Virus record (IMG/VR): IMGVR_UViG_3300045242_000307
Span: 1-31,135 of that record
Source of the DNA: a virus
DNA: 31,135 nt
Reading direction: 5' to 3' (one strand)
Shown: piece by piece, positions 1,341-31,135 of the stretch
Layout: the number at the start of each line of letters is the position of its first letter
Position numbering within the stretch: position 1 is the stretch's first letter
The notes under the pieces: model-generated
Databases searched by the model: none
Seen by the model: only the letters and a program-made list of their open reading frames with translations
Told to the model about the DNA's origin: nothing
Translations under genes and position numbers: made by a program

Positions 1341-1453
1341 CTTTTAAATAACCTCTGGGCCAACGGCCTCATCCGATGCAAAGGCAGCCTCAATCTTAAC
1401 CTCAGCCACAATGGCACCCATTGCTTTAAATGTGGCCTATATTTTTCAACCAT
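1337..1453 (-). CDS. Possible separate small basic protein (alternative reading of the methyltransferase 3' end)
   Basis: If the poly-C tract had 9 or 12 C, the methyltransferase would end at 1446-1448 and this 38-residue frame would be an independent gene. Its ATG at 1453 overlaps that stop (ATGGTTGA) and its own stop overlaps the mutase start (ATGA). Such stop/start overlaps are the rule in this operon. The product would be basic and amphipathic (QWVPLWLRLRLRLPLHRM). In the sequence as given it is in frame with the methyltransferase and is read as its C-terminus. There is no clear ribosome binding site. Confidence 0.35.
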   Translation of the reverse strand: MVEKYRPHLKQWVPLWLRLRLRLPLHRMRPLAQRLFKR

Positions 1454-2377
1454 GGTGGCCGGGTCCGTGGAGCATGACCCACCAGCGCTCATCGGCGCTG
1501 ACCGGGGGGGGGGGCCAGCGGCTAACTCGGTTTGCCAAGCCAGGACTTCGGCCAGCGCAACAGTTAGGTTGGATGGGCGCTCGGTGCCTTCTACCGCTGC
1601 CGGGATGACTTGGTGGCGGTCCAGCGTGGTCTTAACACCTTCTGAACCGTTGAGGGTCTCTAGGCCCCAGCCTTCGACCAGCAGCGGGCAGCCCCAAATA
1701 GAGGTGAGGCGCGCGAGGTAGGCGGCAGCGTCCTTGTGCATTTCGCAGAGCACGTGGTTGGCCGCGACGGCATCGACCGGGAAGTCCTCTAAGGGGGCTG
1801 GATCGAGCAAATAGAATCGCCACCAGGGCACGTGGACCACGCAGCCCGCGTAACTCTCGCGGTTTTCGGTGACGAGGTCCACGAATTTGTCCGCGAAGAG
1901 TCCGGCGAAGATGCGGTTCTGCCAGAGGTAGAACGCCTGGGCGTTCTCCACCACCATGACGGTATAGCCTGTCAGGCCGAGCAGCGCGCTTAGGTAACCC
2001 GAGCCCGGCCCCACCTCCACCACGAGCGCGGGCGGGGCCGCGCGGGCTCGCAAGGCGCGGAAAGCGATGGTGGCGCGGGCCAGCGCGCCGCGCGGCGTAA
2101 CCGGGTGACCATTGGTTAGGCTACGCACCACGCGCGATATCTGGCGCCACCAACTCCACTCCTCCTGGGTCAGGCCGCCGAGCTTCTCGTTGAAATCATC
2201 CTCGAAGCGGCCCTCGTGCATCGCATCGGCCCAGCGCCATAAAGCGCCCGAGCTGGCGGCCCGGGTGGGGTAGCCAATGTAATTAAACAAGACCGGGCGG
2301 CAGGCCTGGATGAGGCGGTTGGGCAAGCCCTGCTCGGCCAGCAACTCGGCGCGGTCGTAGGCGGCGGGCGTGAGCAC
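1337..2377 (-). CDS. SAM-dependent methyltransferase (putative sugar methyltransferase), probable frameshift near the 3' end
   Basis: The 346-codon frame has a class I methyltransferase core: motif I VVEVGPGSGYL at residues 119-129, an acidic strand end (VVEN), and a later DAVAANHVLCEM segment. The GTG start at 2377 overlaps the upstream stop as TAGTG. Its place between sugar-nucleotide genes suggests a glycan substrate, but this is inference. Near residue 290 the coding strand runs through 11 consecutive C (1504-1514). After that tract the frame reads a low-complexity segment (RSAPMSAGGSCSTDPAT). With 9 or 12 C it would instead read SADERWWVMLHGPGHHG and stop at 1446-1448. A separate small ORF starting at 1453 would then overlap that stop. 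The C-terminal 55 residues of the present frame are therefore suspect. Either the tract is length-variable, or it is a sequencing or assembly indel. Confidence 0.75.
   Translation of the reverse strand: MLTPAAYDRAELLAEQGLPNRLIQACRPVLFNYIGYPTRAASSGALWRWADAMHEGRFEDDFNEKLGGLTQEEWSWWRQISRVVRSLTNGHPVTPRGALARATIAFRALRARAAPPALVVEVGPGSGYLSALLGLTGYTVMVVENAQAFYLWQNRIFAGLFADKFVDLVTENRESYAGCVVHVPWWRFYLLDPAPLEDFPVDAVAANHVLCEMHKDAAAYLARLTSIWGCPLLVEGWGLETLNGSEGVKTTLDRHQVIPAAVEGTERPSNLTVALAEVLAWQTELAAGPPPRSAPMSAGGSCSTDPATMVEKYRPHLKQWVPLWLRLRLRLPLHRMRPLAQRLFKR
1504..1514. repeat. 11-base homopolymer (poly-G on +, poly-C in the gene)
   Basis: This is an uninterrupted run of 11 G on the plus strand inside the methyltransferase gene. 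Runs this long slip during replication and are also a common place for sequencing or assembly indels. The frames reached by 9/12, 10 and 11 C differ sharply: a W-rich ending, an immediate stop, and a low-complexity readthrough respectively. Confidence 0.9.
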
Positions 2378-2658
2378 TAGGTCCGCCTAAACTTAACTAC
2401 GCCAGGCTTCTCCCCCGCCCTCGGCAAAGTAGAATAGAGTGTTCGACGCCCCAGATCGGTCAAACCAAAAATAACCGAATTCATACCTATGCGCGGAATG
2501 AGCGGCTGCAAGCCTTTTTGTTCTATAAAACCATCCTCGCACGCTTTCTTCAAATATTCATGTGGACAAAGCCAGACCGGGATATGCGTGTCTTTGCCAG
2601 GAAATTCACGCTCACAAAAGTCAATCCAACCAAGCAATTGAATAAGATCGTTACTCAT
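2377..2658 (-). CDS. Hypothetical protein, 93 aa
   Basis: The ATG at 2658 overlaps the cupin stop as ATGA, which supports this start over an in-frame one further upstream at 2727. The product begins MSNDLIQLLGWIDFCEREFPG, contains a VWLCPHEYLKKACEDGFIEQKG segment and ends with a basic FRRT. No family is recognised. The middle reads like a small winged-helix or phage accessory domain (GFIEQ..LIPRIGMNSVIFGLTDLGRRTL, with LTDLGR typical of a short helix after a strand), but this is weak. It sits inside the sugar block and ends by a one-base overlap with the methyltransferase start. Confidence 0.65.
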   Translation of the reverse strand: MSNDLIQLLGWIDFCEREFPGKDTHIPVWLCPHEYLKKACEDGFIEQKGLQPLIPRIGMNSVIFGLTDLGRRTLYSTLPRAGEKPGVVKFRRT

Positions 2659-3119
2659 GACAAAGCCAGTAGCTGCTTGATGTATTCCTGCTGCTGGGCA
2701 GGATCGGCATCCCTGGCTGGCGCCCATGGCGCGAATTCGCGGTCGGTCTCGCCCAGGAAGGGCCCGGGCTTGCTCTCGTGGTAGACCACCAGCTTGGAAA
2801 CCGGGGTGGTTAGATGCCAGGCGCCCGCGGGGATGAGCATGAGGAACGGGTCGGCATGATGGGCCAGCACCATCTGTTCGATGACTTGGCCGTTGTCGTC
2901 AAAGATAAAGACCGCGAGGTCGCCCCTTATGATATGGAGGGCCTCGGCCTTCGGGGGGGCGACATGGCGGTGCGGCGGAAAGTAGGAGCCGCGATGCTCG
3001 CACACCACCATGCTATGGAACAGGGCCCCGGGGCCCGAGTGCAAGCAGATGCGCTGATTCTGCTTGGTCTTCTGGGCAGTGAAGACCAGCTTGTTAACGG
3101 CCGCCTTGTCAACTTTCAT
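2655..3119 (-). CDS. WbuC-family cupin metalloprotein
   Basis: This 154-residue single-domain cupin resembles the WbuC family, found in O-antigen and other surface-glycan gene clusters. The N-terminal RICLHSGPGALFHSMVV block is typical. The metal-site motif is H50-x-H52 with E59 in PPHRHVAPPKAEALH, and the second histidine comes from PAGAWHLTTP (H102). HESKPGPFLGETDREFAPW is the family-like C-terminal signature. The enzymatic role of WbuC is not established, and I infer only a part in making or modifying a sugar. The ATG at 3119 overlaps the epimerase 3' end by 11 bases. Its stop overlaps the next start as ATGA. Confidence 0.85.
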   Translation of the reverse strand: MKVDKAAVNKLVFTAQKTKQNQRICLHSGPGALFHSMVVCEHRGSYFPPHRHVAPPKAEALHIIRGDLAVFIFDDNGQVIEQMVLAHHADPFLMLIPAGAWHLTTPVSKLVVYHESKPGPFLGETDREFAPWAPARDADPAQQQEYIKQLLALS

Positions 3120-4020
3120 AGTTCACCACCTCGGCGGCGTAGCGATCGATCATCGCGCCGATTTCCTGCGGCGCATAGCCCCAATGGCTTATGGCGCGCG
3201 CGGAGGAGATAAGAAAGGGTGGCTTGGCCGGGAGGGCCTCGGTCAGTTCGATGGTCTGGCCGAGGCCGGCAGCGAGGCGCGTAATGGCCTCACGCACCGT
3301 TATCTGACCAGCGGCGGCGCAGGTGACGGAGTCCAATCCGCGCGGCATTTGATCACGCGCTAAAACGCGCGTAATTAACGCGCAGAGGTCCGCGATATGC
3401 ACCGCGTTATTGAAAGGGGCGTCGAGATTGTAGGCTTTGATCGCCACAGGTCTAGCGCCGTGATTGCTGTGCAATCTCGCCGCTAGACTTGGGAGCCAGT
3501 TGCGCGCGCTGGCGCGCAAGCCGATGATACCGGGCAGCCGCAGCGCGAGCGCGGGTATGTCGAGACCGGCCAAGATGCGCTCGCCCATATACTTGCTGGC
3601 GCCGTAGGGGTCGGGGTTGATGCGGAGTGTTTCCTCGTGCATCAGCGAAATGGCATTATGTTTACAATGTTCGCCATGGACGCAGATGGACGAGAAGAAG
3701 ATGACGATGCGCGGGCGCCAGCGCGCGAGGGCATCGGCAAGGTAGATGAAGGAGGCGACGTTGTCCTCGGCGATCTTGTAGGCGTCGTGCCAGGGCCCGG
3801 CCGCGGCGCAGTGGATAACGGCCTCGGGCGCGGGGCCGGGGAGACTGCCGATCTCGGCCAGGTCCCAATCGTATAAGCGCACGCCCAGCGCGTGCAGGGA
3901 CTGGTTCTCGGGCGAGCGCGCGCGGGCCAGCGCGACCACGTGGGTGTTAGGCAGCGCGGCCAGGGCGCGCGCTACGTGCGAGCCCGCGAAGCCCCCGGCG
4001 CCGGTGACGAGCACGCGCAT
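3109..4020 (-). CDS. NAD-dependent epimerase/dehydratase (extended SDR)
   Basis: This is a 303-residue extended short-chain dehydrogenase. The nucleotide-binding GAGGFAGSH lies at residues 7-15, after a MRVLVTG strand. The catalytic pair is Y139-GAS-K143, with the preceding serine in FFSSICVHG near 110. AVIHCAAAG matches the family strand-4 pattern. Members act on nucleotide sugars as 4-epimerases, 4,6-dehydratases or 4-reductases, and the sequence does not decide which. The length is slightly short for a full dehydratase, so epimerase or reductase fits better. Gene order with a cupin, methyltransferase, mutase-like protein and GT9 enzyme supports a glycan role. The start follows the preceding stop by a few bases without a strong ribosome binding site, so it is probably read by coupling. 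Confidence 0.85.
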   Translation of the reverse strand: MRVLVTGAGGFAGSHVARALAALPNTHVVALARARSPENQSLHALGVRLYDWDLAEIGSLPGPAPEAVIHCAAAGPWHDAYKIAEDNVASFIYLADALARWRPRIVIFFSSICVHGEHCKHNAISLMHEETLRINPDPYGASKYMGERILAGLDIPALALRLPGIIGLRASARNWLPSLAARLHSNHGARPVAIKAYNLDAPFNNAVHIADLCALITRVLARDQMPRGLDSVTCAAAGQITVREAITRLAAGLGQTIELTEALPAKPPFLISSARAISHWGYAPQEIGAMIDRYAAEVVNYES

Positions 4021-4024
4021 AAAT

Positions 4025-4216
4025 TTAATTCAGGCCGACGGGACAATGGCCATGCGGGCAACAATACATCATTTTGTTTCCCAAAACGATTCCACACTTT
4101 GGACAAGTAGGATCACGGTAATTAGAACGCGGACGCGGAAAATTTTCTTCTTTATTATCTTTCCAAGGCCATCCACTACGCCGTATCATCTCTTGCCAAT
4201 ATCCCATGATAGTCAT
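4025..4216 (-). CDS. Small zinc-ribbon-like protein, 63 aa
   Basis: The C-terminal part has PTCPKCGIVLGNKMMYCCPHGHCPVG, with CxxC then CC and a further Cys and His. This could bind one zinc ion. The N-terminal half is basic and aromatic (MIRRSGWPWKDNKEE). The strong ribosome binding site GGGAGGGTTGC before the ATG at 4216 supports the start. No precise family is recognised. It precedes the epimerase by a few bases. Confidence 0.65.
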   Translation of the reverse strand: MTIMGYWQEMIRRSGWPWKDNKEENFPRPRSNYRDPTCPKCGIVLGNKMMYCCPHGHCPVGLN

Positions 4217-4370
4217 GCAACCCTCCCGTTAAGCGTAGGCATAGGCGTCCCGCAAGGCAACTTTCTCCGATATTCCTGGATCGCTGTTGCCGCTACGTGG
4301 GCCGGCTAGGGGGCTAGCCGCTGTGGGACAAGAGCAAGGTTAGCGCCGCGCGCGGGCGCGGCAAAGCTGT
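4217..4370. other. Non-coding gap with inverted repeats
   Basis: No credible ORF is seen here. On the minus strand, just after the stop of the 70-aa gene, there is a GC-rich palindromic stretch (GCCGCGCCCGCGCGCGGCGC) and then a second small inverted repeat (GGCTAGCCCCCTAGCC). Neither is followed by a T-run, so an intrinsic terminator is not supported. They may act as mRNA-stabilising or processing structures. Confidence 0.4.
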
Positions 4371-4583
4371 TTATTGGGTGGTATCAATAAGGCGAATAAC
4401 GTGGGCCACCGCTGCAAGACCATTGGCGGCTTCTTCCAGCGTACTCGCATCGCGCCGCAAATTAGCACCGCCAAACCATAGCTTAGCGTAACGCTCGCGC
4501 AATCTCACAGCAGAGCGGCGCCAGCGCTGCTCCAAATCTTCGGCGCGCTTGGCAGCTTCCTCGCGGACTTGTTCAGGTGTCAC
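4371..4583 (-). CDS. Hypothetical helical protein, 70 aa
   Basis: The GTG at 4583 is preceded by AAGGCAAG. The product is mostly charged helix (VREEAAKRAEDLEQRWRRSAVRLRERYAKLW), then TLEEAANGLAAVAHVIRLID, so it may form a small helical hairpin or coiled coil. There is no membrane segment and no family is recognised. It lies between the small membrane protein and the zinc-ribbon gene on the same strand. The 260 bases upstream (4584-4844) hold no convincing gene. Confidence 0.6.
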   Translation of the reverse strand: MTPEQVREEAAKRAEDLEQRWRRSAVRLRERYAKLWFGGANLRRDASTLEEAANGLAAVAHVIRLIDTTQ

Positions 4584-4844
4584 AACATCTTGCCTTTATA
4601 AATAAGATAAGAGCAGGCGGCTTGCTTAGGGCCGCAGCATTGTCTCTCTGCCCGATAATAAACTCGCTAGAAACCCACCGTTTGTTTCAACGGACTTCTG
4701 CGCCTAGCAACGTTGCCTTGCCCTCGGGCCTAGCGGGGCGTGGGCTGGTCCTCGGCATTGACTACGTACGCTTGCCAACCGGCTCCGGCTGCCCACCACT
4801 GCTCTAAGCTACTAATGCCCCCGCACGTGGGCGCGGCAAAGCGC

Positions 4845-4970
4845 TTACTGCGGCGGGGCCCCATAGATATAGGCCAGCCCCAGCAGCAAAATGGTGGCCG
4901 CGACCAGGATGACAGTGCGCGCGGTGCCCTGGCCGATGACATTGGCGGGGAAGGGCTGGCGGTGCGGCAT
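4845..4970 (-). CDS. Small single-pass membrane protein, 41 aa
   Basis: This short gene starts at ATG 4970, three bases after the GT9 stop. After a basic, Asn/Gly-containing N-terminus (MPHRQPFPANVIGQGTAR) comes one hydrophobic segment TVILVAATILLLGLAYIY (about residues 19-36), then GAPPQ. This looks like an inner-membrane anchor. Phage proteins of this size include holin-like, superinfection-exclusion and glycosyltransferase-helper peptides. The position after a glycosyltransferase favours a membrane partner, but nothing proves it. Confidence 0.6.
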   Translation of the reverse strand: MPHRQPFPANVIGQGTARTVILVAATILLLGLAYIYGAPPQ

Positions 4971-4973
4971 GGG

Positions 4974-5840
4974 CTAGGCGGCGGCTGCGGCGCTGGCGCA
5001 GCGCAAGCGGGCAAGGCTGATAGCGAGATCGGCGATGGCCGGGGGGCTGAAGGAGCGCACGCAATCACCGTGGCCGAGGGGGCAATCCCAATAGGTGGTC
5101 GGGGTCGTGAAGCGTGACTCGCACCCGCCGCAGCCCAGCGGCGTGGGTAGTATGTGGGTGGGCGCGTCGTTGGGGCGTAAGTGGAGCACGTGGCCGGGGT
5201 GAGCCATGGTCGTCATGGCGATTACCGGGGTACCGGTGGCCTGGGCCAGGATCATCGGGCCGCTTTCGGAGCAAATGAAGCAGTCGGCGGAGGCGATTAG
5301 GGCGGCTTGCTGGGCCAGGGTCAGGCGGCTGCGCGTGTCGTGCACATTGGTAAGTCCATCGTGGTCTTGATGGGTGCCCGTGACCACGACATTGAAGTTT
5401 TGGGCCGTGAGTAAATCGACCAATTGCTGCCAGAACTCCAGGGGTAGAGTGCGGATGGGCCAGTTGCGGCAGGGGTGGATGACGATCGTGCCAGGGACCG
5501 GGTAGGAGTCCGGATAATTGAAGTAGAGGCGATGCTCGGTATTGCGATCGCCGAAAGCTACCTCCGAGTAAGCGTCGATTGGGTGCAACTGGCGCAGCCG
5601 GTTCTCGAAGGCCATATTGAGATCGATTTCGCGCGTGTAGATTAGATTAGAAGAAAGCGAAGCGCCGGCAACGTCGGAGTTGGCCCAGAAGACCTGGGGG
5701 TAGTCGGTCTGCACCCAGATTTCGTGGCGCGGGTTCTCCGCACGCAAGCGGTGGATGATCGGAGTGGTTTCGAGGACGTCGCCGAGGGCGCCGGTGCGCT
5801 TGACCAAAATCGAGGGTGGTGAAGAATGGATGATGGTCAA
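4974..5840 (-). CDS. Glycosyltransferase family 9 (heptosyltransferase-like)
   Basis: The protein resembles the ADP-heptose:LPS heptosyltransferase family (GT9), cytoplasmic inner-leaflet enzymes that extend the LPS core. N-terminal ILVKRTGALGDVLETTPIIHRLRAENP (GALGD about residues 17-21) is the hallmark acceptor-side loop. IVIHPCRNWPIRTLP and the later SADCFICSESGPMILAQATGTPVIAMT match the C-terminal donor-binding half. A Cys-rich tail (CGGCESRF..YWDCPLGHGDCV) follows. There is no ATG near the conserved start. I choose TTG 5840, which overlaps the upstream stop (TTGA) and has AAGGG nearby. TTG 5867 is an alternative adding nine residues. The donor need not be heptose. Phage GT9 enzymes could modify host surface glycan or another acceptor. 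Confidence 0.8.
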   Translation of the reverse strand: MTIIHSSPPSILVKRTGALGDVLETTPIIHRLRAENPRHEIWVQTDYPQVFWANSDVAGASLSSNLIYTREIDLNMAFENRLRQLHPIDAYSEVAFGDRNTEHRLYFNYPDSYPVPGTIVIHPCRNWPIRTLPLEFWQQLVDLLTAQNFNVVVTGTHQDHDGLTNVHDTRSRLTLAQQAALIASADCFICSESGPMILAQATGTPVIAMTTMAHPGHVLHLRPNDAPTHILPTPLGCGGCESRFTTPTTYWDCPLGHGDCVRSFSPPAIADLAISLARLRCASAAAAA

Positions 5841-6037
5841 TGCTTTGCTACCCTTGGTATGAAGCAATCAGAAATAAGATGTGTGCCATCTTGCGGAACT
5901 GAAGTGGTACAAGCCGGACAAGGCATGCCCGCACCGCACTCGCATGCGAAGAAATCGTTGCTCACCCCCGCCCACGGCAGCGAAGGATGATTTTCACAAA
6001 CAACTCCGGTGTCATCGCATTGGGAACATTTACTCAC
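5837..6037 (-). CDS. Small Cys-rich zinc-binding protein, 66 aa
   Basis: The GTG at 6037 overlaps the upstream stop as GTGA. The protein has a CSQCDDTGVVCENH segment and then CECGAGMPCPAC: several CxxC and CxC pairs as in DnaJ-type zinc ribbons (the CDDTG core resembles the C-x-x-C-x-G-x-G repeat). One or two zinc ions are plausible. Small proteins of this kind are frequent in phages of Alphaproteobacteria. No function is known. Confidence 0.65.
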   Translation of the reverse strand: MSKCSQCDDTGVVCENHPSLPWAGVSNDFFACECGAGMPCPACTTSVPQDGTHLISDCFIPRVAKH

Positions 6038-7872: not shown

Positions 7873-10800
7873 CATTTGTTCGCTGCCGGGGCTCTTTATC
7901 CCCGGTCTCCATATGTCACCATATGGTTCGGACTATCTCATCACGCTTGTGCGTGTCGGGCGCTCGTGGGACCATTATTCTTTCGTCAGGTCCTAGTCTC
8001 TACGCCTTCCGCAGCCCGTTACGTCTGCGGCTTGGCACGGTATTGCCTCGGAGAGGGTTCACCGTTTCACCCGATTTTCCTTACAGATAGTTTGTAAGGG
8101 CGCTCCAAATAAACGCATTCGAGAGTGTCATGTTGCCCGCCCAACCAATTAAACGGATCATAGCGTCCTGATTCACCGAAAATCGATCGGGATCAAGGGG
8201 CACCATGTTCCGCCTACTGTGCGGGCGCCAATGCAAATATTTGGTGTTCAACATGTACATCGTTGTACTGGGAGCACCACCTACTGCACTGGTCGATGAC
8301 GACAGCTGGGGCGGCAGCGGGTCGGCTGCGAAGCCCTGGAAGCCACCGTCGAGCACCACGTCGGCGTTGAGGTACTTGAGGCTTTGGAATCCGGCCTCGG
8401 CCATGTCCGGGGCCGCATTCTCGGTCTGGATGCGCTGGATCGCTTGCAGCGCATTCAGGTAGTACTTGTACATCACGTTGTCGGCGATGATCAAGTCCGG
8501 GTAGTCGCGCCCGCGGATGAGCGTGACCCAGAGCGAGTCCATCTGCTGAAGGATGGTCGAGCTGGAGAGCACCGCCCCGCCATTGGTACCGGCGGACCAG
8601 CTTTGGTTCTGCCAGAAGGACCACTGCGAGCGATCGATGCCGCCGACGGTGCCGCTGGTCGGCGTCGCGGCGACGAGGAGTTGCAGTCCGCCGACGGAGT
8701 TGGTCACGGTCCCGTCGCCGTAGATGCCCTGGGAGAGGCCGTTCATGAAGGTCGATTTGTTAGCGCGCGCTTGTTTATAGCGCGCTTCTGCATGTTGCCA
8801 TGCAGTCCAGACTATCTCATCCCTTTCGGGTCGGGCGCTCGTGGCGGGATTATTCTTTCGTCACCCGCTAGTCGTTACACCTTCCGCTGCCCTGGCCCCC
8901 TTAGCCGGGGGTTACATCAGCGGCTCGGTTCGGTATTGCCCGCTGGGGGTGTCCACCGAATTCACCCGATTTACTACCTGCTACTATTTGTTAGGTCGTA
9001 ACAAATAATTGCAGGTGGGACTCCAAATAAACAGAATCCTCTGCGTTCATGATTCGGCTCTCAAGGAGATCTATAATTGCCTCCTCTCCGCTATTTTGCA
9101 ACTCTTCCAATCCACTGATGCTAACGGCAACTGCCGCTTGGCGAATTGGATATTCGGCTGCGGTAAATACCTGAGAGGGAGCGATGTTCAACGTCTGGTA
9201 GCCGCTGTCGATTTGTTAGTTGCGCGCTTGTTTATAGTGCGCTTCTGCATGTCGCCATGCAGTCCGGACTATCTCTTCACCTTATTTGGTGCCGGGGGCT
9301 CGTGGGCGGGGTTATCGTTGGGACTCACCCGCCTAGTCTCTACACCTTCCGCAGAACCTTGGCCCACTGCGGCTCGGCTCGGTGTTGTCTCTGCTCTAGC
9401 AATCAACTGGCCGAAGAAACTATCGGGAGGCCATTCGCGCCGCATCCACTGCAACGCTAAAGCCCGCCAGTCAGCTGCTCGATTAGAGATATTCACCGAA
9501 TTCTCCCGGTTGAGTGGCTAGCGTTTTATTTGCTGACCACTGGAAGGTTTGATTGTCCGCATAATTAAGCTCCTGGACGATCGTCCTTCCGCCTCCGAAT
9601 GTTTTCAAGTTGCCCTTGCGGGTCAGTCGGAGTAGTGCAGCGTTATTCCTCGACATATTATCAGCGAGTTCCGATTATTTGTTACCGCGCGCTTGTTTAT
9701 AGCGCGCTTCTGCATGTTGCCATGCAGTCCAGACTATCTCTTGTTGGCACGTGCCTTAGCGCGCTTACGCGCTTTGGCTTCCTTACTCTTGCGTGCATTA
9801 GCACGGGCTAATCCCGCTAACCGAGCAGCACGATATTCTGGATTTTGCCACCGCGCCTTAGAACGGGCCGATTGTGCAGCCTTCCATTCAGGCGTCTTCA
9901 TTACCTCGGCCATGGCCTGTATGCCCTTGGCCTGAGTTTCTGGCAAATGCTCCATCTGCTTGGCACGGTATTCCGGGTCTTGCCAAAGTTCTTTTGTCCT
10001 AGAACCTGTCTTACAGTTGGCGCGCCATTCCGGATCCTTACGGCACTCCCGTAAAGCAGCCAACCCCTTAGACAAGTTTTCTTCGCGCACCATTCTGACC
10101 TTAGAGCCGGGGATGAACCAATATGAGTTAACCTTAACTCTACCCCGGTCTAAGCTTTCACGCCGCACTGCCTGTATCTCTGGGATTAGCCACTGCTCGC
10201 GGCAATTTTTGCTCTGATTTTCCCTTTTCAAGGGATCAGTGTCCCAAAGTTCATGCATAGCGGCGCGGGCCTTGTCGAAAATGGCCGCGCGCTTCGCCAA
10301 GAATTCTTCATCTTGGCGGGCGTTAGTTTTGGCTCGACCCTTGGCCAGTCCCGCTCTTACCGTTGCTGCAAATTCTGCGTTCTCTTCCCAGCGCTTTTTA
10401 GTCACTGCGGACATATAAGGGCTAGGCACAACGGAAGAAACTGGATTGGCTAAGTTATAACCAAACTCCCTTTCAACTGCACGCAACTGATCTATCCACC
10501 ATTGCTCCCGCTCCCTACGATCGACTACCGGGCACCTTTCGATTATCTCGAACGTAAAATTCTCAGCGCCATACTTACGCCAAGCGTTCTGAAGATAACG
10601 ATTGCCATGCTTACCCTGGATTAACTCGACTGTATGGCCCCTATGTCTTTTAGAGGCCTGAACGGAAGACCCTACATAAACCTTGTTGGTGACAAGGTTA
10701 CGCATAAGGTAGATTTCAGCATATTCATGCATGTGCCAACCCGGGTGCTCATGGGGCCATTATTCTTTCGTCAGGCCCTAGTCGTTACACCTGCCACGAC

Positions 10801-15067: not shown

Positions 15068-15513
15068 GCGGCCAGCCTCATCTCGTTCCACTTCATCAGC
15101 GCGCGGGCATCGGCCAGGGCATTGTGCGGCTGGGCCGAGACCGGCTGGCCGGGGGGAGTCTTTAAGATAGTAATGCGACAGGCGAAGTCGAGGCTACTAC
15201 CATAATCAGGACCTTGAAGCAGCGAACAAAAGTGCTGGGCATCGACATGCCAATCACAAATAATTTCAGGATTGCTGAACTGCTGGATAAAACATTGGAA
15301 TTCACTACGAAAAATGAGGGGTCGTGTAAACTCCACGCCGAGCACCGGGATGACATGCTTTGCTACCCATGGATCCCACGGCTTATAGCGTGGGCTCTCG
15401 GGCAAATCGCGCGGATCTTGCGCCGCATACCATGCGGCCCCATCCGCAATCAATGCCAATGAGATAAGATCGCCGCCATGGCCATTGAACTCGGTATCCA
15501 GATAGAAGCGCAC
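15064..15513 (-). CDS. DnaQ-like 3'-5' exonuclease (RNase H fold)
   Basis: This is a 149-residue compact DEDD-type exonuclease. Motif I is FYLDTEFNGHGGD (D6, E8) and a middle acidic motif is ICDWHVDAQHF (D87/D91). Motif III is PHNALADARAL (H130, D135), the DEDDh form. It would remove nucleotides from DNA or RNA 3' ends. The GTG start overlaps the portal stop (TAGTG), so it is made with head proteins rather than with replication genes. A job in genome-end processing or host nucleic-acid degradation is possible, but not shown. Confidence 0.82.
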   Translation of the reverse strand: MRFYLDTEFNGHGGDLISLALIADGAAWYAAQDPRDLPESPRYKPWDPWVAKHVIPVLGVEFTRPLIFRSEFQCFIQQFSNPEIICDWHVDAQHFCSLLQGPDYGSSLDFACRITILKTPPGQPVSAQPHNALADARALMKWNEMRLAA

Positions 15514-18017
15514 TAGAGCCCCCCGGCCGCGGCTTGCTGCGGCACCGGCGGCGCCATCACCTGCTTGGCGATGTCGGCGGCGCGCTCGGCCGTGCCCTGG
15601 CGAGCTTCGTGCTGGCGCTGGGCGGCCTGCTCCTGAAGCTCTAGGTGGCGGTTCTGGAGCTCCAGCACCTTTATCTGCATCTCCATGCGGCGCATCTCCA
15701 AATCCGTGGCATCGGATTGGGCCTGGGCTTGGGCCTGCTGCTGCTCGCGCGCGGTCTTCATCTGCTCGGCCTGGGCATCGGCCGCGGCCTTTTGCTGATC
15801 AGACTGGGCGTTTATCTCGGCCACCTTGACATCGCTCTGGGCCTTGAGGGCATCGGCCTGGGCCTTTATCTGTAGCGGATTGGGCTGCTGGCCTTGCTGC
15901 TGGGCGCGCTTTTTGGCCACCTGGACGGCCTCGTCGCCGAATTCCTCGATGGCCACCTCCAGATCGCGCCCGGCCTTGAAGCCGCGCACCGCGAATTGGA
16001 GCAACTTAGCCAGCAGCGGAACCGATTCGGGCATCTGCGCGCCCATGGCCATGGCTGCCTGCATGAACTTAGTCACCGCGCCCACGAATTCGGTGCGATC
16101 GGCCTTCTCCTGGGCCTGGTCGCCGTACACCGAGGAGTCCACCTCGATGTCCACGCGGAAGCCGCGCAGCTTCTCATTGCGCAGCAGCGCGATGGCCGCA
16201 GCGATGCGCTGGAAACCTTCCAGCTTGGCCATCAGCTCCGGGGGAAGTTGCGGGGGGGCCATCGCGCCCGGCATGGCCGGGGGGGTTCCCGGGAATGGTA
16301 CAACGTTCTGTCCAGGTGCGGGGCCGGCAGGCGATTGCGGCGAACCTGCCGGCCCCAGCGCCGCTGGTCCCGCCGAGGGAGGAAGGACGGGTTGCGACGG
16401 CGCACCGCTGGGGCCCGGGGTTGCGGCGCCGGGCGGCAGCAGGTCGATGTCGGGCGCGCCTAAGCCCTCCTCATAGAGCGCACCAGAAACCTCGATGAGT
16501 GATTTGGGGCTGAAGTGCATGGACATGATCTCGGCCATGATGCGCAAGGTGTCGCGGCAGAGCCTAGCAACCTCGCCCTGGCGGCGCTGGAGCCGGGTGC
16601 CCGAATTATTGGACTTTAGGCGCTGGCCGCCCATCGTCTCGCGCGCATCGGTGGTGCCGCGCAGCACGTCGGTTATGCCGGTGAGGCGGTCCATCTCGGC
16701 GATGATTTTTTCCTTGAGCGCCATGAGCTCGTTGAGTACGCCGATGATTTCCTTGAGCGGCAGCAGACTCATGACCCCGGCCACGCCGCCCTTCTCGGCG
16801 AAGGCGGCCCATTGGTCCACCGGGATGAGCTCGTTCTCGACCGATTCATCCAGCAGGCGCTGCATGTCCTTCTGGGAGGCATCGTAGAGGCCGGCCACCT
16901 TGCAAGCCTTGCTGAGCATGTGGATGCGCTGCGTCAGCTCATCCACTTGGATGGCCTGGTCCTGGTATTGGATGTAGTCGGGCACGGGAGTGAGCGTATT
17001 ATTGGTAGCGTTGGCGTAAATAGGGCGCGGCACCGGGAAGAAATTCTCCAGCTGCAAGGGGTCATCCTTGCGATTGCAGAGATATTCGTAGCCCTCGGCT
17101 ATCCAATAGACCTTCTCGTCCGCGCGGTTCCAGATCTCGACGACCTCGCCCTTCTTGCTGGCCTCCATCTCGGGCACCACCGTCTCGGCCTGGCGGCGGC
17201 GCTCGCGGTCGTCCTTTTCGAGCGGGATGGCCTTGCCGATCTTTTTGCCGAAATTCTCGATAAGCTCGTCGCGCGTGAGGTAGACTCTCTTGCCCACCGC
17301 GACTACTTCCGCCCAGGTGCGCGCGCGCGCCGGGAAGGTAAAAAAATCGGTCCAGGGGATGTAGTCGACCGGGGTGCTCTCGCGCGCGATGCGGTCGCCG
17401 GTTTGCTCCAGCTTCTCCTCCGCGATAGAATCATCTTCTGATTCTATCGGGCCCTGGGCATCCCTTAAATCCAAGCCGGTCTCCACGGGAAGGGAGACAC
17501 CGGCTTCGACTTCGGGCTCGTAGCGCACCCAGGGCACTCCGCGGCCCGCGAGCAGATAGTCCATCACGCAGCGATTGATGGCCTCGTCGATGCCGCAGAA
17601 TTCGATCTCATTGCGGAGTGCGCGCTCGAGCATCTGCGCCGCGCCGCGCCCAGCGGGGTCCTTGTCCTTAAAGCGGCGCTCGACAACGGGCGTGGGCAGC
17701 CGGCCATAAAGGGCGGGGTGCAATATCTGGACATTGGACCACAGCGCATTGTAGCGGCGCTGGCCCTCCTCGTCTATGCGGGAGCGCTCGTCGCGGTAGC
17801 GCTTCTCGATGGTGTGGCCGCGCTTGACCCACTTGCGCATCTCATCGTGCACATCGTCGAGTTGCTGCTTCCAATAGCTGGCCAAGCGGCGGCCCTCGTC
17901 GCCGCCTTCCGGACCAGCGAGCGCGTCGAGCTGCGGACCGCGCGCGGCGCCGGCCGGGAGACTCCCAGCTTCCGCATCGCCAGCCTCGGTGTCGATCTCT
18001 TCCTGGTTATTGGCCAT
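15513..18017 (-). CDS. Portal protein, podovirus-like, 834 aa
   Basis: Twelve copies would form the DNA entry channel at one capsid vertex. The N-terminal clip/stem region is typical: LASYWKQQLDDVHDEMRKWV, then YNALWSNVQILHPALYGRLP and PVVERRFKDKDPAGRGAAQM. Further blocks are VDYIPWTDFFTFPARARTWA and LMALKEKIIAEMDRLTGITD with VLRGTTDARETMGGQ, as in portal proteins of this type. About residues 525-590 are a Pro/Gly/Ala linker. From about 700 to 834 the protein is a Gln/Ala-rich coiled coil (EQMKTAREQQQAQAQAQSDA). The length exceeds P22 portal (725) because of these two parts. It lies downstream of the terminases. An unusual extended barrel is a possible reading of the C-terminal coil. Confidence 0.9.
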   Translation of the reverse strand: MANNQEEIDTEAGDAEAGSLPAGAARGPQLDALAGPEGGDEGRRLASYWKQQLDDVHDEMRKWVKRGHTIEKRYRDERSRIDEEGQRRYNALWSNVQILHPALYGRLPTPVVERRFKDKDPAGRGAAQMLERALRNEIEFCGIDEAINRCVMDYLLAGRGVPWVRYEPEVEAGVSLPVETGLDLRDAQGPIESEDDSIAEEKLEQTGDRIARESTPVDYIPWTDFFTFPARARTWAEVVAVGKRVYLTRDELIENFGKKIGKAIPLEKDDRERRRQAETVVPEMEASKKGEVVEIWNRADEKVYWIAEGYEYLCNRKDDPLQLENFFPVPRPIYANATNNTLTPVPDYIQYQDQAIQVDELTQRIHMLSKACKVAGLYDASQKDMQRLLDESVENELIPVDQWAAFAEKGGVAGVMSLLPLKEIIGVLNELMALKEKIIAEMDRLTGITDVLRGTTDARETMGGQRLKSNNSGTRLQRRQGEVARLCRDTLRIMAEIMSMHFSPKSLIEVSGALYEEGLGAPDIDLLPPGAATPGPSGAPSQPVLPPSAGPAALGPAGSPQSPAGPAPGQNVVPFPGTPPAMPGAMAPPQLPPELMAKLEGFQRIAAAIALLRNEKLRGFRVDIEVDSSVYGDQAQEKADRTEFVGAVTKFMQAAMAMGAQMPESVPLLAKLLQFAVRGFKAGRDLEVAIEEFGDEAVQVAKKRAQQQGQQPNPLQIKAQADALKAQSDVKVAEINAQSDQQKAAADAQAEQMKTAREQQQAQAQAQSDATDLEMRRMEMQIKVLELQNRHLELQEQAAQRQHEARQGTAERAADIAKQVMAPPVPQQAAAGGL

Positions 18018-21263: not shown

Positions 21264-21436
21264 CTGCCCTCCGGATAGAACCAGAAGACATCGCGGTAAG
21301 ACTCATATTCAAAGCAATTACTAAATTGTCGGACAAATTCCGCCAGCCAGGGCTCCTGACATATTTGCAAGGAAGTTAAACAGCGACGATTATCAACTTG
21401 CCTGAAGGGCACCGCGACAGTTTGGTATTGGCTCAT
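21260..21436 (-). CDS. Hypothetical protein, 58 aa
   Basis: The ATG at 21436 overlaps the TerL stop (ATGA) and the stop overlaps the next ATG. The product has MSQYQTVAVPFRQVDNRRCL, then TSLQICQEPWLAEFVRQFSN and FWFYPEGR. It is soluble and aromatic. Unknown function. It is seen as part of a longer open frame, but overlaps on both sides define the gene. Confidence 0.6.
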   Translation of the reverse strand: MSQYQTVAVPFRQVDNRRCLTSLQICQEPWLAEFVRQFSNCFEYESYRDVFWFYPEGR

Positions 21437-22938
21437 CGTATGCGGCCCCCGGTCATGCGCTTGCCCCTGCGCTCGTGCGCGTCCCACATGTCCTTGAGGG
21501 TGACGGTGCAGGCCTCGGGGTTGGTCGAGAGTATCTTGTCGGGCTCGGTGGGCGCGGGCGCGCGGCCGGGGATCATGCGATCGATGACCTGGCCAATTAA
21601 TCCAAGAGCATCGACCTGATCGTCGTTGCGGCCCACCGGGAAGGCCAAGAGCTCCTGGCGGAAATCGGGATACCAGAAGGCTTGGCTCGGAACGTAGAGA
21701 CCGCGCGTGGCCGCTCGGCCGCGGATGGACTGGGCGCGGATGGCCTTGTCGCCCCGCGTGGGGAATTGCGCGCGCACCACGTTGATGCGGCGCTCGAGCA
21801 AGCGCTTGTGCAGGAACGGGCCGACGCCCAACTTGATCTGGCCGGATTCCTCCGCCCAGCCCGCCGGGCGCCAGCGCTCCATCATGTCGCACTGAGTCTC
21901 CACCCAGATGTCGGAACTCGTGCGCGCGCGCCAGAGGTCTAGGATGTAGATCCGTTCTTCAGGATCTACACCTACGACGATGTGGCAGGTGTAGTCGCCG
22001 CCATCGGATGTGACAGCGTAGTCGCTGGCGCCGTAGACGTGCAGAGTGTCCCTGGCCGGGGGGTCGATGTAGGGGCGTAGCCAATCGGTCGAGAAATAGA
22101 TGCCCTGGTCGGGCGTGGGGTTCTGCTGGTAGAGCGCGGACCAATCCGCTGGCTGCATGTTGGCGCGCAAGCGCTCCAGCGCGCGCAAGTCGTACTTCTC
22201 GGGCCAGAGCGCGCGGCCATCATCCTGGATGGCCTTGAGCTCGACCACGTCCCACTTATCGCCGCCAGCGGCTTGCTGCACCAGCAACTCGCCCGTGAGG
22301 TCCTGCTCGTGCATGCGGTGATTGATGAGTACGATGGCCGCGTTGTTCTCAAGGCGGCTATAAGCGGCGGAGAGCCACTGGTGCACCGCCTTGCGCTCGG
22401 CTTCGCTACGCGCGTCGGCCATGGATCCGAATGGATCGTCGATGAGCAGCACGTGGGCGCCGCGGCCCATGATGTCGGAGCCGATGCCCACCGCATAGTA
22501 GCTGCCGCCCTGCTCGGTATTCCAGCGGCCCTTGGCCTGGGAGTCTCCGCTCAGACGTGTTTGAAAAAGGCGAGCGTACTCGGGTGAACCCACGAGATTT
22601 CGAACATCCCGTCCGAAATCCTCGGCCAGCGGGCCGGAAGCAGAGGCAGAGATGAATTGCCGATGGGGGTAGTGCCCAAGGTAGAATGCCGGGAAGCGCC
22701 GGCTGGCGAGCTCGGACTTGCCGTGCCGGGGGGGCACGAGAAGCATGAGACGATCGGTCTGGCCACGGAGGACCCTTTCGAGCTGCGCTGCGATCTGGCG
22801 GTGGAAGTCGGCCGTGCTATAGCGGGGGTATGTATACTCAGTGAACGCGATCAGGCTCGAGCGCGCGGCTCGGCGCAGGAGCAGCTCGCTCGCTGCGCTC
22901 GGGGACGGCACTGCGTACGATGGCTGCGAGCTCCTCAT
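21433..22938 (-). CDS. terL: Terminase large subunit
   Basis: This is the 501-residue packaging motor. The ATPase half has Walker A VPPRHGKSE (residues 68-76) and Walker B VLLIDDPF (163-170), with a VLINHRMHEQDL coupling segment near 200. The nuclease half has YGASDYAVTSDGGDYTC near 305-320 with the first metal aspartates, and NDDQVDALGL (438-447) with the last. An N-terminal TEYTYPRYSTADFH block matches the family. The ATG at 22938 overlaps TerS by 101 bases. GTG 22911 is an alternative giving less overlap. No intron interrupts it. The C-terminal part after 455 is a short charged tail. Confidence 0.95.
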   Translation of the reverse strand: MRSSQPSYAVPSPSAASELLLRRAARSSLIAFTEYTYPRYSTADFHRQIAAQLERVLRGQTDRLMLLVPPRHGKSELASRRFPAFYLGHYPHRQFISASASGPLAEDFGRDVRNLVGSPEYARLFQTRLSGDSQAKGRWNTEQGGSYYAVGIGSDIMGRGAHVLLIDDPFGSMADARSEAERKAVHQWLSAAYSRLENNAAIVLINHRMHEQDLTGELLVQQAAGGDKWDVVELKAIQDDGRALWPEKYDLRALERLRANMQPADWSALYQQNPTPDQGIYFSTDWLRPYIDPPARDTLHVYGASDYAVTSDGGDYTCHIVVGVDPEERIYILDLWRARTSSDIWVETQCDMMERWRPAGWAEESGQIKLGVGPFLHKRLLERRINVVRAQFPTRGDKAIRAQSIRGRAATRGLYVPSQAFWYPDFRQELLAFPVGRNDDQVDALGLIGQVIDRMIPGRAPAPTEPDKILSTNPEACTVTLKDMWDAHERRGKRMTGGRIR

Positions 22939-23353
22939 CCGTCAGTTCCCTGGCGTCGGTACGCCGTATGGTGTGGTCTACCTCGGTGCGGCTACGCCAC
23001 AGCTCGGGCTGGCGGTTCTCCAGCCAATACTGCGCCGCGCTGGGCTCCGCCGGCACGTGGCGCGTCTTGGTGGCCTGGACCACGGTGCCGTCCTTGCGCG
23101 TGTAGCTATAGGGCTCCTCCACGTCGTAGCCGGTGGCGCGCCGGTATAGCGCCATGGTCACGCGCTGATCGGCCATCTGGCCGCCCACCGCGATGGCGCG
23201 CCGGAAGTCGTCGTGACAGCAAGCCCAGAGCTGGATCTGCGCGAGGCTCACGGCGAAATGCTTGGCCAGCTCGACCTCGCTGGCGCCGTTGGCGCAGAGC
23301 TGCTCGGCTATAGGCGCGTAGGCGGGGTCGTAGGGGATGCAGGCGTCACTCAT
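22838..23353 (-). CDS. terS: Terminase small subunit
   Basis: The 171-residue protein has the layout of small terminases that choose the packaging site. An N-terminal HTH-like segment (YAPIAEQLCANGASEVELAKHFAVSLAQIQLW) is followed by a central helical part (MADQRVTMALYRRATGYDVE) and EPSAAQYWLENRQPELWRSR. The last block (A-x-x-x-W-L-x-N-R-x-P-x-x-W-R) is characteristic. The ATG at 23353 overlaps the preceding stop. It is directly followed by TerL. Confidence 0.9.
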   Translation of the reverse strand: MSDACIPYDPAYAPIAEQLCANGASEVELAKHFAVSLAQIQLWACCHDDFRRAIAVGGQMADQRVTMALYRRATGYDVEEPYSYTRKDGTVVQATKTRHVPAEPSAAQYWLENRQPELWRSRTEVDHTIRRTDARELTDEELAAIVRSAVPERSERAAPAPSRALEPDRVH

Positions 23354-27627: not shown

Positions 27628-27774
27628 TCATCCTGTCCAGTAGTGCCAAACATAGGCGAGCAGCGGCCATCCAAATAAAACGAATAGAGTGGCCACTACG
27701 ATGAAGACCAGCACGCCGAGCAGAAACTCGCGCAACGCGAACTTGCCCGGCGGCTGGGTGCGGTAGGCGCTCAC
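27628..27774 (-). CDS. Small membrane protein, 48 aa
   Basis: The GTG at 27774 overlaps the cold-shock gene stop (GTGA). After VSAYRTQPPGKFALREF comes one membrane segment (LLGVLVFIVVATLFVLFGWP, about residues 18-37), then LLAYVWHYWTG. Probably an inner-membrane protein with the N-terminus inside. Function unknown. Confidence 0.6.
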   Translation of the reverse strand: MSAYRTQPPGKFALREFLLGVLVFIVVATLFVLFGWPLLAYVWHYWTG

Positions 27775-28031
27775 GCGCCGATCACGAGCTCGATGTCACA
27801 AGCCTGCTGGCCGCGCTTGGTGGTCTCCACGCGAAAGCGCACCGGGTCGCCCTCCTTGATCTCGGGCAGCCCGGCCTTCTTGAGCGCGCTGACGTGCATG
27901 AACACGTCGGGCTCGCCCTCGCGCCCGATGAAGCCGAAGCCGCGAGATTCATTATACCATTTGACCTTGCCAGAAAGCTTCTCGCCGGCGCCGTTGACCG
28001 GGGGGATCTGCGTATTCGCTGCGTCGCTCAT
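27771..28031 (-). CDS. Cold-shock-domain protein
   Basis: The ATG at 28031 with GAGGAG upstream gives an 86-residue protein. An in-frame start at 28106 is less likely. It has a full cold-shock fold: SGKVKWYNESRGFGFIGREG with RNP1-like GFGFI (31-35), EPDVFMHVSALKKAGLPEIK with RNP2 DVFMHV (42-47), and EGDPVRFRVETTKRGQQACD. Such proteins bind single-stranded RNA and act as RNA chaperones. Here it might help fold the capsid introns, but this is speculation. It is one of the early genes of the long operon. Confidence 0.9.
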   Translation of the reverse strand: MSDAANTQIPPVNGAGEKLSGKVKWYNESRGFGFIGREGEPDVFMHVSALKKAGLPEIKEGDPVRFRVETTKRGQQACDIELVIGA

Positions 28032-28102
28032 CTCTCTGCGTCTCCTCGTGCGTCTTACTTCGACCCGGACGGTGGTCGCCCGGCGCTGGTATTCGTCGAG
28101 TC

Positions 28103-28288
28103 TCATCCTGCTTTCCGTTCATCAGCAAATAAGGGCTGCCCTTCCTTCCAATCCGAGAAAATCACACAACCCCATAAATGCCAATGATCCAATTTCAATT
28201 CCTGGCGACAACGCAGCGCAGCATCGTGATTGTCGAATACATACACGTTCTGTGTCTTGGGGTTATGGACAACAAATATTTGCATCAT
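28103..28288 (-). CDS. Hypothetical protein, 61 aa
   Basis: The ATG at 28288 (or 28285) follows the preceding stop. The product reads MMQIFVVHNPKTQNVYVFDN, then HDAALRCRQELKLDHWHLWG and CVIFSDWKEGQPLF. It looks like a small alpha/beta protein. The neighbourhood DNA is less GC-rich. No family is recognised. Confidence 0.6.
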   Translation of the reverse strand: MMQIFVVHNPKTQNVYVFDNHDAALRCRQELKLDHWHLWGCVIFSDWKEGQPLFADERKAG

Positions 28289-29138: not shown

Positions 29139-29708
29139 CTAAGTTGCTACGTACAAACCATTTTCTTGCCGCCGCGGTCGCCAATAAGGGCGCTTAACCT
29201 TCACGCGGGGGGTTCGCTCTTGGGCCGCTTCCAGCCACTCGTCGTCCATGTCAATCGGTACCTGACGACCCATCATGCCCAGCAGCACGCGCACCCGCTG
29301 CTCACCAGTGCGCGCATGCCAGATGGCGTCGAAGCCCTGGTAGGGGCCGCCGGCCACGCGCACTCTCTCGCCGGGGAGGAAGCGCTCCGCGCGCGGCGGG
29401 CGCGGGAAATCGATGATGGATTGGCAATCGGCCCGGGCCAGCAAATCATCCATTATGGACTGGGGCACAGTGCCCTCGACCATCGCCACGATGCCGTAAG
29501 TCTCACGCACCTCGCGCCGGGCCGAGCCGATAGGACACCAGGCGAATACATATCGGGGAAATGTTGGAACGAGTCGCTCCTGCTTACGGCCGCGGCTGAC
29601 GCGGACCTCGAGATGGCGGAAGATGTGGAATGGCAGCTGGGCGCGCGTTAAATGCGCAGAGACTCGGTTCTCGGCGCCGGGGGCGGAGACCGCGAGTTGC
29701 CAGGTCAT
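29139..29708 (-). CDS. NusG/RfaH-like transcription elongation factor
   Basis: The 189-residue protein starts at ATG 29708 (GTG 29741 possible). It has a NusG N-terminal domain: MTWQLAVSAPGAENRVSAHL, then VRVSRGRKQERLVPTFPRYVFAW with the FPRY(V/L)F signature near 50-55. A KOW-type C-terminal domain (FLPGERVRVAGGPYQGFDAI, RVRVLLGMMGRQVPIDMDDE) follows. Such proteins bind RNA polymerase and keep it elongating or couple it to ribosomes. Its place as first gene of a nearly 30 kb operon fits an RfaH-like antitermination role. The phage supplies its own copy. No ops-like element is identified. Confidence 0.88.
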   Translation of the reverse strand: MTWQLAVSAPGAENRVSAHLTRAQLPFHIFRHLEVRVSRGRKQERLVPTFPRYVFAWCPIGSARREVRETYGIVAMVEGTVPQSIMDDLLARADCQSIIDFPRPPRAERFLPGERVRVAGGPYQGFDAIWHARTGEQRVRVLLGMMGRQVPIDMDDEWLEAAQERTPRVKVKRPYWRPRRQENGLYVAT

Positions 29709-29741
29709 GCGCGTTGGCCGGGGCGGTACATGCCCTAGCAC

Positions 29742-30108
29742 CCCTAACGGGTAGCCCAGTCCGTGGATGGCACCTTAGCGCGTTTGCGCAGGCGGGTAAA
29801 GGGGCTAACCGGGGGTATTGCCGTTACACATGCCTGCGTGAGCGCGCACGCGCGCGGGCAAAAGCCAATACTTTCAATACCTAGCGTGTGGGCGCGCGTA
29901 AATATCTCCCGTTCACAATGTCTTACTGAAAGATCCTAAGGTATTGGACTATGGTATGGTCTCCACCAAAAGCCGATACCTTTCATTAGGTTTTCAGTCT
30001 CAAAACCCATTTAGCCATTAATTAATTTAATACCCACCCCCCTAGCATGCGCCCAGGATTAACCGTAAAGTAGCCCCTCCTATACCTTTCACCCCCGGCC
30101 CAATACCC
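29742..30108. promoter_or_regulatory. Divergent control region with repeated ATACC motifs
   Basis: This 367-base region lies between the NusG-like gene (minus) and the HTH gene (plus) and has no credible ORF. It holds many copies of a (C/G/T)(A)ATACC-type motif in both orientations: GGTATTG at 29814, CAATACTTTCAATACC at 29866-29881, GGTATTG at 29940, GATACCTTTCA at 29975-29985, TAATACCC near 30028, TATACCTTTCA at 30081-30091, and CAATACCC at 30101-30108, touching the HTH start codon. The AT-rich part near 30015-30030 could hold a promoter, though no clear -35/-10 pair is fixed. It is the likely operator and start region for both operons. Confidence 0.6.
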
Positions 30109-30321
30109 ATGCCCCCTGACGCCATCCGCGCGCTGCGCCTCTCCCTCTCCCTCGACCAGGCCGCCTTTGCCGAGCTGCTCGGCTACGCCAACAACACCTA
30201 CAGCCGCCGCGTTCTCATCTCTGACTACGAGCGCGGCCGCCGCCGCCCCAGTCGCCAAGCCCTCCTCCTGCTCCGCATGATCGCAGCCCATGGTCCCGCC
30301 GCCTTAGCCGAAGCCCCCTAA
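30109..30321 (+). CDS. Cro/CI-like helix-turn-helix regulator, 70 aa
   Basis: This is a short plus-strand HTH_3-type protein: IRALRLSLSLDQAAFAELLG, YANNTYSRRVLISDYERGRR and PSRQALLLLRMIA. The Q-x-x-F-A-x-x-L-G and I-S-x-Y-E-R-G-x-R-x-P-S marks are the classical phage-repressor pattern. Its ATG at 30109 touches a CAATACC motif, so it could repress itself and perhaps the divergent operon. No dimerisation or peptidase domain is present, as in Cro. Confidence 0.85.
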   Translation: MPPDAIRALRLSLSLDQAAFAELLGYANNTYSRRVLISDYERGRRRPSRQALLLLRMIAAHGPAALAEAP

Positions 30322-30536: not shown

Positions 30537-31135
30537 GTGCCCACTACCCCCGCCCAGCGCCTCGCGGCCCTATTTGCCGGCCACCCCACGGCACACGGCA
30601 CCCATGGCGAGCCCGAGCACAACCCTACTAAGGCCAAGTGGGAGATCAAGGCCACCGCGCGCACCAAGCGGGAGGCCCCCACCCTAGAACTTTGGGAGGA
30701 GCACCTCGCCGGCGATTACCCCCTCGGTATTATTACCATCCGCCCCGACAGCACCTGCCTCTGGGGCTGTATCGACATCGACGAATACCAAGACGACCTG
30801 CTGCGCCTCATCCAGCAAATAAACGCAAACCACTACCCCCTCGTGCCTTGCCGCAGCAAATCCGGCGGCCTCCACCTCTTCCTCTTCCTGACCACCCCGG
30901 TCCCGGCCATTGCCATTATCACACTTCTCAGAGACATCGCCGCGCGCATCGGCCATGCCACGGCCGAGATATTCCCCAAGCAAGCCCAAGTCCAAACCGA
31001 GCGCGGCGATGTGGGCAACTGGATGATAATGCCCTATTTCGGCTCAACCTACAACAACAAGCTGCGCGAACAGGTCGGTCTCAAGCACACCGGCGCTGAG
31101 CAGAATCTCGAGGAATTCCTTGACACTGCCGAAAC
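30537..31135 (+). CDS. Archaeo-eukaryotic-type primase (AEP/PrimPol-like), 3' end outside window
   Basis: The frame from GTG 30537 stays open to the right edge (199 codons). It has the AEP catalytic motif WGCIDIDEYQDDLLRLIQQI with the D80-x-D82 metal pair, then LVPCRSKSGGLHLFLFLTTP with the SGG-x-H motif near 109-113. Further on are AEIFPKQAQVQTERGDVGNW and MIMPYFGSTYNNKLREQ. Similar primase domains occur in phages (also in TOTE-type systems). The likely role is primer synthesis for phage replication. No good ribosome site is seen, so the start is uncertain. No helicase domain is visible within the window. Confidence 0.85.
   Translation, partial: MPTTPAQRLAALFAGHPTAHGTHGEPEHNPTKAKWEIKATARTKREAPTLELWEEHLAGDYPLGIITIRPDSTCLWGCIDIDEYQDDLLRLIQQINANHYPLVPCRSKSGGLHLFLFLTTPVPAIAIITLLRDIAARIGHATAEIFPKQAQVQTERGDVGNWMIMPYFGSTYNNKLREQVGLKHTGAEQNLEEFLDTAE

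Follow-up and report, generated by a model that had tools for sequence, protein, structure and literature searches.

Introduction

Of the systems described so far, the closest to the viral gene reported here is RfaH of Escherichia coli, a NusG-type protein that serves long operons. Tyr54 and Phe56 of RfaH lie on its clamp-binding face, and Phe56 marks RfaH-like proteins, most NusGs having Leu (PMC2871177); the residues that read ops are K10, H20, R23 and R73 (PMC5995543). For LoaP, UpxY, TaA and ActX, the gene heads, or lies inside, the long operon that it presumably serves (PMC7819879), and reviews also mention rfaH genes on plasmids and in prophages, as well as paralogues placed in cis (PMC7593976, PMC7819879). 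Phage NGN proteins have already been catalogued, as phrog_6386 ('transcription antiterminator') and as the 'antitermination protein NusG' of Sinorhizobium phage phi3LM21, and an unnamed antiterminator occurs in all phiLM21-like prophages (PMC12429752).

Here we analyse a viral sequence of 31,135 nucleotides (IMG/VR record IMGVR_UViG_3300045242_000307, positions 1 to 31,135; hereafter the window), in which a NusG-type gene heads a long minus-strand gene string. It shares this placement with LoaP, UpxY, TaA and ActX, which unlike it belong to cellular or plasmid loci (TaA and ActX being set beside it by description only). It shares its presumed job with lambda Q, Xp10 p7 and other such phage antiterminators, which to our knowledge are neither NusG proteins nor homologous to them.

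Results

The open reading frame at 29139-29708 of the window (minus strand) encodes, from an ATG, a protein of 189 amino acids with an NGN domain (residues 1 to ~100; 29409-29708), a KOW domain (~109-161; 29226-29384) and a basic C-terminal tail (162-189; 29142-29225) that contains KxKRPYWRPR. An earlier note, made from the DNA letters alone, had read it as an NGN plus KOW protein of NusG/RfaH type, and this was borne out by Pfam, NCBIfam, PHROGs and PDB matches as well as by the fold that AlphaFold2 predicts. The Pfam NusG/NGN model matched with an E-value of 1.6e-7 (32.2 bits, cut-off 22.2) and phrog_6386 with 2.2e-12, and the PDB matches comprised both NusG and RfaH chains. The nearest NCBIfam model was RfaH (TIGR01955, E 3.5e-18), although its 66.1 bits are far under the curated cut-off of 144.5; the housekeeping NusG model TIGR00922 gave 30.4 bits against 135.7, short of the curated equivalog score, and the LoaP (14 bits) and UpxY (42.5 bits) models also fell far below their cut-offs. 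Pfam KOW alone scored 10.6 bits, under its cut-off of 22.3, and a phmmer match to the NusG C-terminal domain agrees with the barrel in the AlphaFold2 model. The protein is a specialised NusG paralogue rather than RfaH proper (66 bits against 144.5). It has the hallmarks of such paralogues (NusG-SP): an NGN domain, a predicted C-terminal KOW barrel and a gene within a long one-way string, its presumed target. In a tree of 42 NusG-type proteins the group to which the window's protein belongs could not be placed; phi3LM21 NusG, unlike the window's protein, grouped with E. coli NusG (98/92).

Close relatives of the protein are encoded by two phages, L001 (a 90.5-kb IMG/VR contig; 87% amino-acid identity) and L002 (a 9.7-kb contig; 81%). 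Across these relatives the gene has a dN/dS of 0.14-0.25 (NG86), and its differences between the window and L001 number 16, 6 and 43 at the three codon positions. Because of these identities, the low dN/dS and the third-position bias, the frame is not a chance one, and by the same comparison the gene is under purifying selection. A longer 200-residue form starting from a GTG (29741) was rejected, L002 having no in-frame start there. The RPYWRPR motif of the tail is invariant in the three phages and absent from E. coli NusG, E. coli RfaH and distant phage proteins. Directly behind the NusG gene, L001 carries an IS605 OrfB/TnpB-type gene (8645-9763, plus strand) that is absent from the window.

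The AlphaFold2 run used 36 aligned phage proteins and gave a pLDDT of 91.2; an earlier alignment of three near-identical sequences had given 41 and was discarded. The earlier note had proposed structure prediction of both domains as a check, and the outcome is a predicted NusG fold with the polymerase-docking residues present, in which the KOW domain forms a five-stranded beta-barrel (strands 115-118, 127-133, 138-145, 148-155 and 159-161) as against the alpha-hairpin that RfaH adopts at rest. In Foldseek, the top PDB matches to the model included 8phk, recruited RfaH on RNA polymerase (E 2e-10), and 6gov, where NusG is part of the lambda-N antitermination complex (E 2e-9); 2jvv matched the predicted KOW barrel with a TMt of 0.78, and autoinhibited RfaH aligned over only ~95 columns. 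The model suggests that the autoinhibited alpha-hairpin KOW typical of RfaH is absent here, with the proviso that a single prediction cannot exclude a fold switch.

In the NGN domain, which Pfam, the alignment and the model all support, the motif FPRYVF supplies the four docking residues of RfaH (F51, P52, Y54 and F56, all on its clamp-docking face or close to it; PMC2871177) as F50, P51, Y53 and F55, so that the position at which most NusGs have Leu bears the RfaH-specific Phe. The same Phe is found in L011, L023, phi3LM21, ppBjS10J-1 and MinM1, distant proteins that were fetched without the motif as bait; its presence in all 79 motif-bearing phage proteins was not counted, being circular for those fetched with the FPxYxF pattern. 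Elsewhere the protein departs from RfaH. At the positions of K10, H20, R23 and R73 the window, L001 and L002 have A, H/R/R, R and Y, respectively; of the four residues with which E. coli RfaH reads ops, the window protein has lost two, K10 and R73. Of the autoinhibition contact E48-R138 the arginine is kept and E48 is replaced by V47, and the gate-loop motif HTT is ARR. G144, G147 and P151 stand where RfaH forms what we take to be its second C-terminal-domain helix. The basic tail is extra, and the gene lies inside its own presumed target. With housekeeping NusG the protein shares the NGN domain, the beta-barrel KOW and, in the KOW loop (GMMGR as opposed to SIFGR), the G-R pair, the Phe of the loop having become Met; with its G-R retained, the loop may still bind Rho.

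The NusG-type gene is the first on the minus strand; the genes above 29.8 kb, namely a helix-turn-helix (HTH) protein of Cro-like size (30109-30321), a small ORF and an AEP-TOTE-type primase (30537-31135, running past the window end), are on the opposite, plus strand. Below it, when the window is compared with the syntenic phage G001, all 33 minus-strand ORFs that could be tested between 1.3 and 29.7 kb show more change at third positions of the minus frame than at the others, and gene order in the 90-kb relative is the same over the compared stretch. Minus-strand genes of the string include a cold-shock-domain protein (27771-28106), the terminase small (22838-23353) and large (21433-22938) subunits, the portal protein (15513-18017), RNase H and a major head protein, the part of which matched by phrog_9953 (8081-8746) lies in a region broken by introns. 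A group I intron (RF00028, 60.6 bits) is found at 7909-8122 (minus strand) and a GIY-YIG endonuclease ORF at 9734-10732, inside the conserved coding region (~7.9-12 kb) to which the head protein belongs; gaps in the alignment with G001 suggest several introns in this region, differing in content between the two phages. The far end of the string (171-5867, minus strand) is occupied by sugar genes for a UDP-galactopyranose mutase-like protein, a nucleotide-sugar epimerase and a glycosyltransferase 9. The cold-shock protein, early in the string, is kept in all three phages at ~76% amino-acid identity. In E. coli, proteins of the CspA type act as antiterminators, and the string may thus encode two elongation helpers together.

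Of the nearly 30-kb operon to the left edge put forward in the earlier note, the one-way string of ~29 kb stands, while a single operon is a reading that strand and gene order suit without proving it. Intrinsic terminator-like sites are not enriched in the window (25 found, ~27 expected), and promoter-like matches, both strands taken together, occur at about twice the chance level, making several transcripts possible. One match at 11 of 12 positions (27639-27610) was taken as chance, as it sits at the start of a coding frame.

Upstream of the gene, a 35-bp block (29769-29803, minus strand) is common to the three phages, the DNA beyond it having diverged. It comprises TTTACC (29795-29800), a 17-bp spacer and TAAGGT (29772-29777), the second hexamer being TAAGGT or TAAGCT (TAAGST) among the three, and the spacer contains a dyad, GCGC-AAAC-GCGC (29778-29789). 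With up to three mismatches allowed, its 27-bp core occurs once in the genome of the 90-kb relative. We infer that the block is best read as the promoter of the operon, with the dyad lying between its two hexamers. It resembles the E. coli promoter consensus weakly and was not listed by the promoter scan; this consensus may not be that of the host, which is likely alphaproteobacterial because terminase relatives were found in Afipia and Hyphomicrobiaceae genomes. Alphaproteobacterial promoters need not resemble those of E. coli. An operator for the HTH protein as the sole reason for the block was weakened as an explanation: HTH-gene DNA is present in L002 and was not found in L001 (the 90-kb genome being searched in part), yet L001 keeps the block. 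Just upstream of the block, L001 has a strong GC-rich hairpin (~7875-7895) and L002 GC-rich pairing, with no counterpart seen in the window.

The earlier note had also suggested looking for an ops-like sequence near 29.7 kb. The conserved block does hold a small hairpin, and no E. coli-type ops was established in the leader of the NusG gene. It is conceivable, if unlikely, that the block is an ops-like recruitment site in the non-template strand and that the promoter reading is wrong, a view otherwise compatible with the role proposed below. The hairpin (GCG-CAAA-CGC) could form in that strand, as in ops (PMC5995543), and conservation extends through the spacer, beyond what a plain promoter would require. 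On the other hand, nothing further upstream is conserved, so that any promoter above the block would itself be unconserved; TTTACC-17-TAAGST has promoter spacing; and the ops-reading K10 and R73 are lost.

Between the putative promoter and the NusG-type gene lies a leader ORF of eight codons (MYRPGQRA*; 29705-29731, minus strand), kept in both relatives as MYRPGQSA* and VYNPRRSA*, and in all three phages its TGA overlaps the NusG start. A Shine-Dalgarno-like AGGGG (29741-29745, minus strand) gives the leader ORF a good ribosome site, the NusG start having none of its own; in L002 this start is a TTG with no in-frame alternative just above. The arrangement points to translational coupling from the leader ORF to the NusG gene, with modest support because two of the three phages hardly differ in this part of the sequence.

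The earlier note held phage-encoded NusG paralogues to be not common, a view contradicted by the 230 relatives that a single scan of IMG/VR returned. Two phages with related terminases, L011 (54% identity) and L023 (49%), likewise encode an NGN protein ahead of the terminase and on its strand; that of L011 (2742-3209, plus strand) has no recognisable KOW domain. Scanning with a mixed alignment yielded a first set of 41 loci; at 20 of the 28 loci tested, the large ORF that comes first downstream was the terminase large subunit, and at two more it was a portal. The terminases belong to PHROG types 9, 38, 2, 979, 3717 and 15, and because they are of so many types the loci do not represent one lineage. 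A symmetric search of both flanks and both strands placed the large terminase downstream on the same strand at 27 of ~30 distinct loci and upstream at none. The same test on the second set (230 relatives, 80 kept) gave 38 downstream, one upstream, two on the opposite strand and five with none despite at least 4 kb of sequence, while 16 were too short. Clustered at 50% identity, the two sets together have a large terminase downstream on the same strand in 49 of 55 clusters, upstream in one (locus L106) and none in five, figures to be read with the caveats that the terminase-search seeds were first taken from downstream ORFs, that the loci are not fully independent and that IMG/VR selects viral contigs. 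About eight loci with enough sequence show no terminase (three in the first set, five in the second). As a rough baseline, 20 of 197 genes (~10%) lie within 4.1 kb before the terminase in three annotated phages counted by hand.

This order of NusG-like gene and terminase recurs in three named phages, phi3LM21, the Synechococcus phage MinM1 and ppBjS10J-1, the terminase of the last being identified here. When proteins from the window, L011, L023 and L063 served as tblastn queries against named phages, no useful phage came up. Within the terminase clade presence is patchy, no NusG-like gene being found in L007, L010, L020, L021, L028, L030 or L031. Two phages have a ParB-methyltransferase fusion between NusG-like gene and terminase (L065, 1610-2941; L051, 7467-8750).

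Discussion

That NusG-like genes recur ahead of the terminase in phages unrelated to one another argues strongly for a role in late-gene expression. Phage NGN proteins being already catalogued, this position is the new part; our literature search, which covered few subscription papers, found no account of it as a common one. It is also a position like that of lambda Q, between early genes and terminase and on the strand of the late genes. The lambda Q gene follows early genes, just as the NusG-type gene of phi3LM21 follows, and overlaps, a replication gene.

We consider it fairly probable that the phage paralogue binds the clamp of the host RNA polymerase during elongation, takes the place of host NusG and renders the enzyme processive over the late string that its gene heads, mainly by escape from Rho-dependent polarity and pausing. 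This reading draws on homology, the predicted fold, the retained docking residues, selection and the place of the gene ahead of the terminase in dozens of phages that are not related. Polymerase would start at the 29769-29803 block, acting as operon promoter, and the leader ORF would pass ribosomes to the NusG frame. The newly made protein would then dock on the polymerase in place of host NusG, shutting out Rho, and the modified enzyme could cross the long GC-rich late region, with its packaging, portal, head and sugar-modification genes, with less Rho-dependent loss. Since the NusG-type gene is the first of its own string, such antitermination would mostly work in cis, with feedback of the protein on its own gene, and the lack of any enrichment in intrinsic terminator-like sites makes Rho a likelier target than hairpin terminators. 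The protein is thus probably a late-operon processivity factor that works mostly in cis against Rho. Several findings weigh against this reading: the G-R kept in the KOW loop, by which Rho might still be bound; ARR in place of the gate-loop HTT; a terminase that lies upstream at L106 and is missing at about eight loci; and the twofold excess of promoter-like matches, with which the string may be read as several transcripts.

It seems quite unlikely that the protein instead acts mainly in trans, displacing host NusG genome-wide and loosening Rho control or the coupling of transcription to translation, its late position serving only to time expression. The predicted barrel and the change of E48 to V47 do suggest a protein free of autoinhibition and not confined to a single site, in keeping with the loss of K10 and R73, yet a factor for host take-over would be expected among the early genes, and in most of these phages the gene lies just before the terminase. 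Very doubtful, too, is that its main job is to couple translation to late mRNA through KOW and S10 in the manner of RfaH, rather than antitermination: the KOW fold matches the NusG and RfaH barrels, and weakly initiated frames are at hand in the leader ORF and the NusG start, but the Phe of the NusG SIFGR loop is Met here. That the gene is a passenger, a NusG or RfaH picked up from a host and serving no specific function, as its patchy presence within the terminase clade might suggest, is highly improbable in view of purifying selection and its fixed position in many unrelated phages.

Beyond the processivity role proposed for the window, we hold evenly balanced the broader view that NusG paralogues are a widespread and largely unnoticed means by which tailed phages switch to late genes, perhaps acquired repeatedly and holding the position of lambda Q, late expression being set by the exchange of host NusG for that of the phage on the elongating polymerase. 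A NusG-type factor encoded at a fixed place before the terminase in dozens of phages is a candidate for what turns on late genes outside the lambda-like and T7-like models. It points to host NusG and Rho as its competitors, and phi3LM21, MinM1 and ppBjS10J-1 are named phages in which it could be tested.
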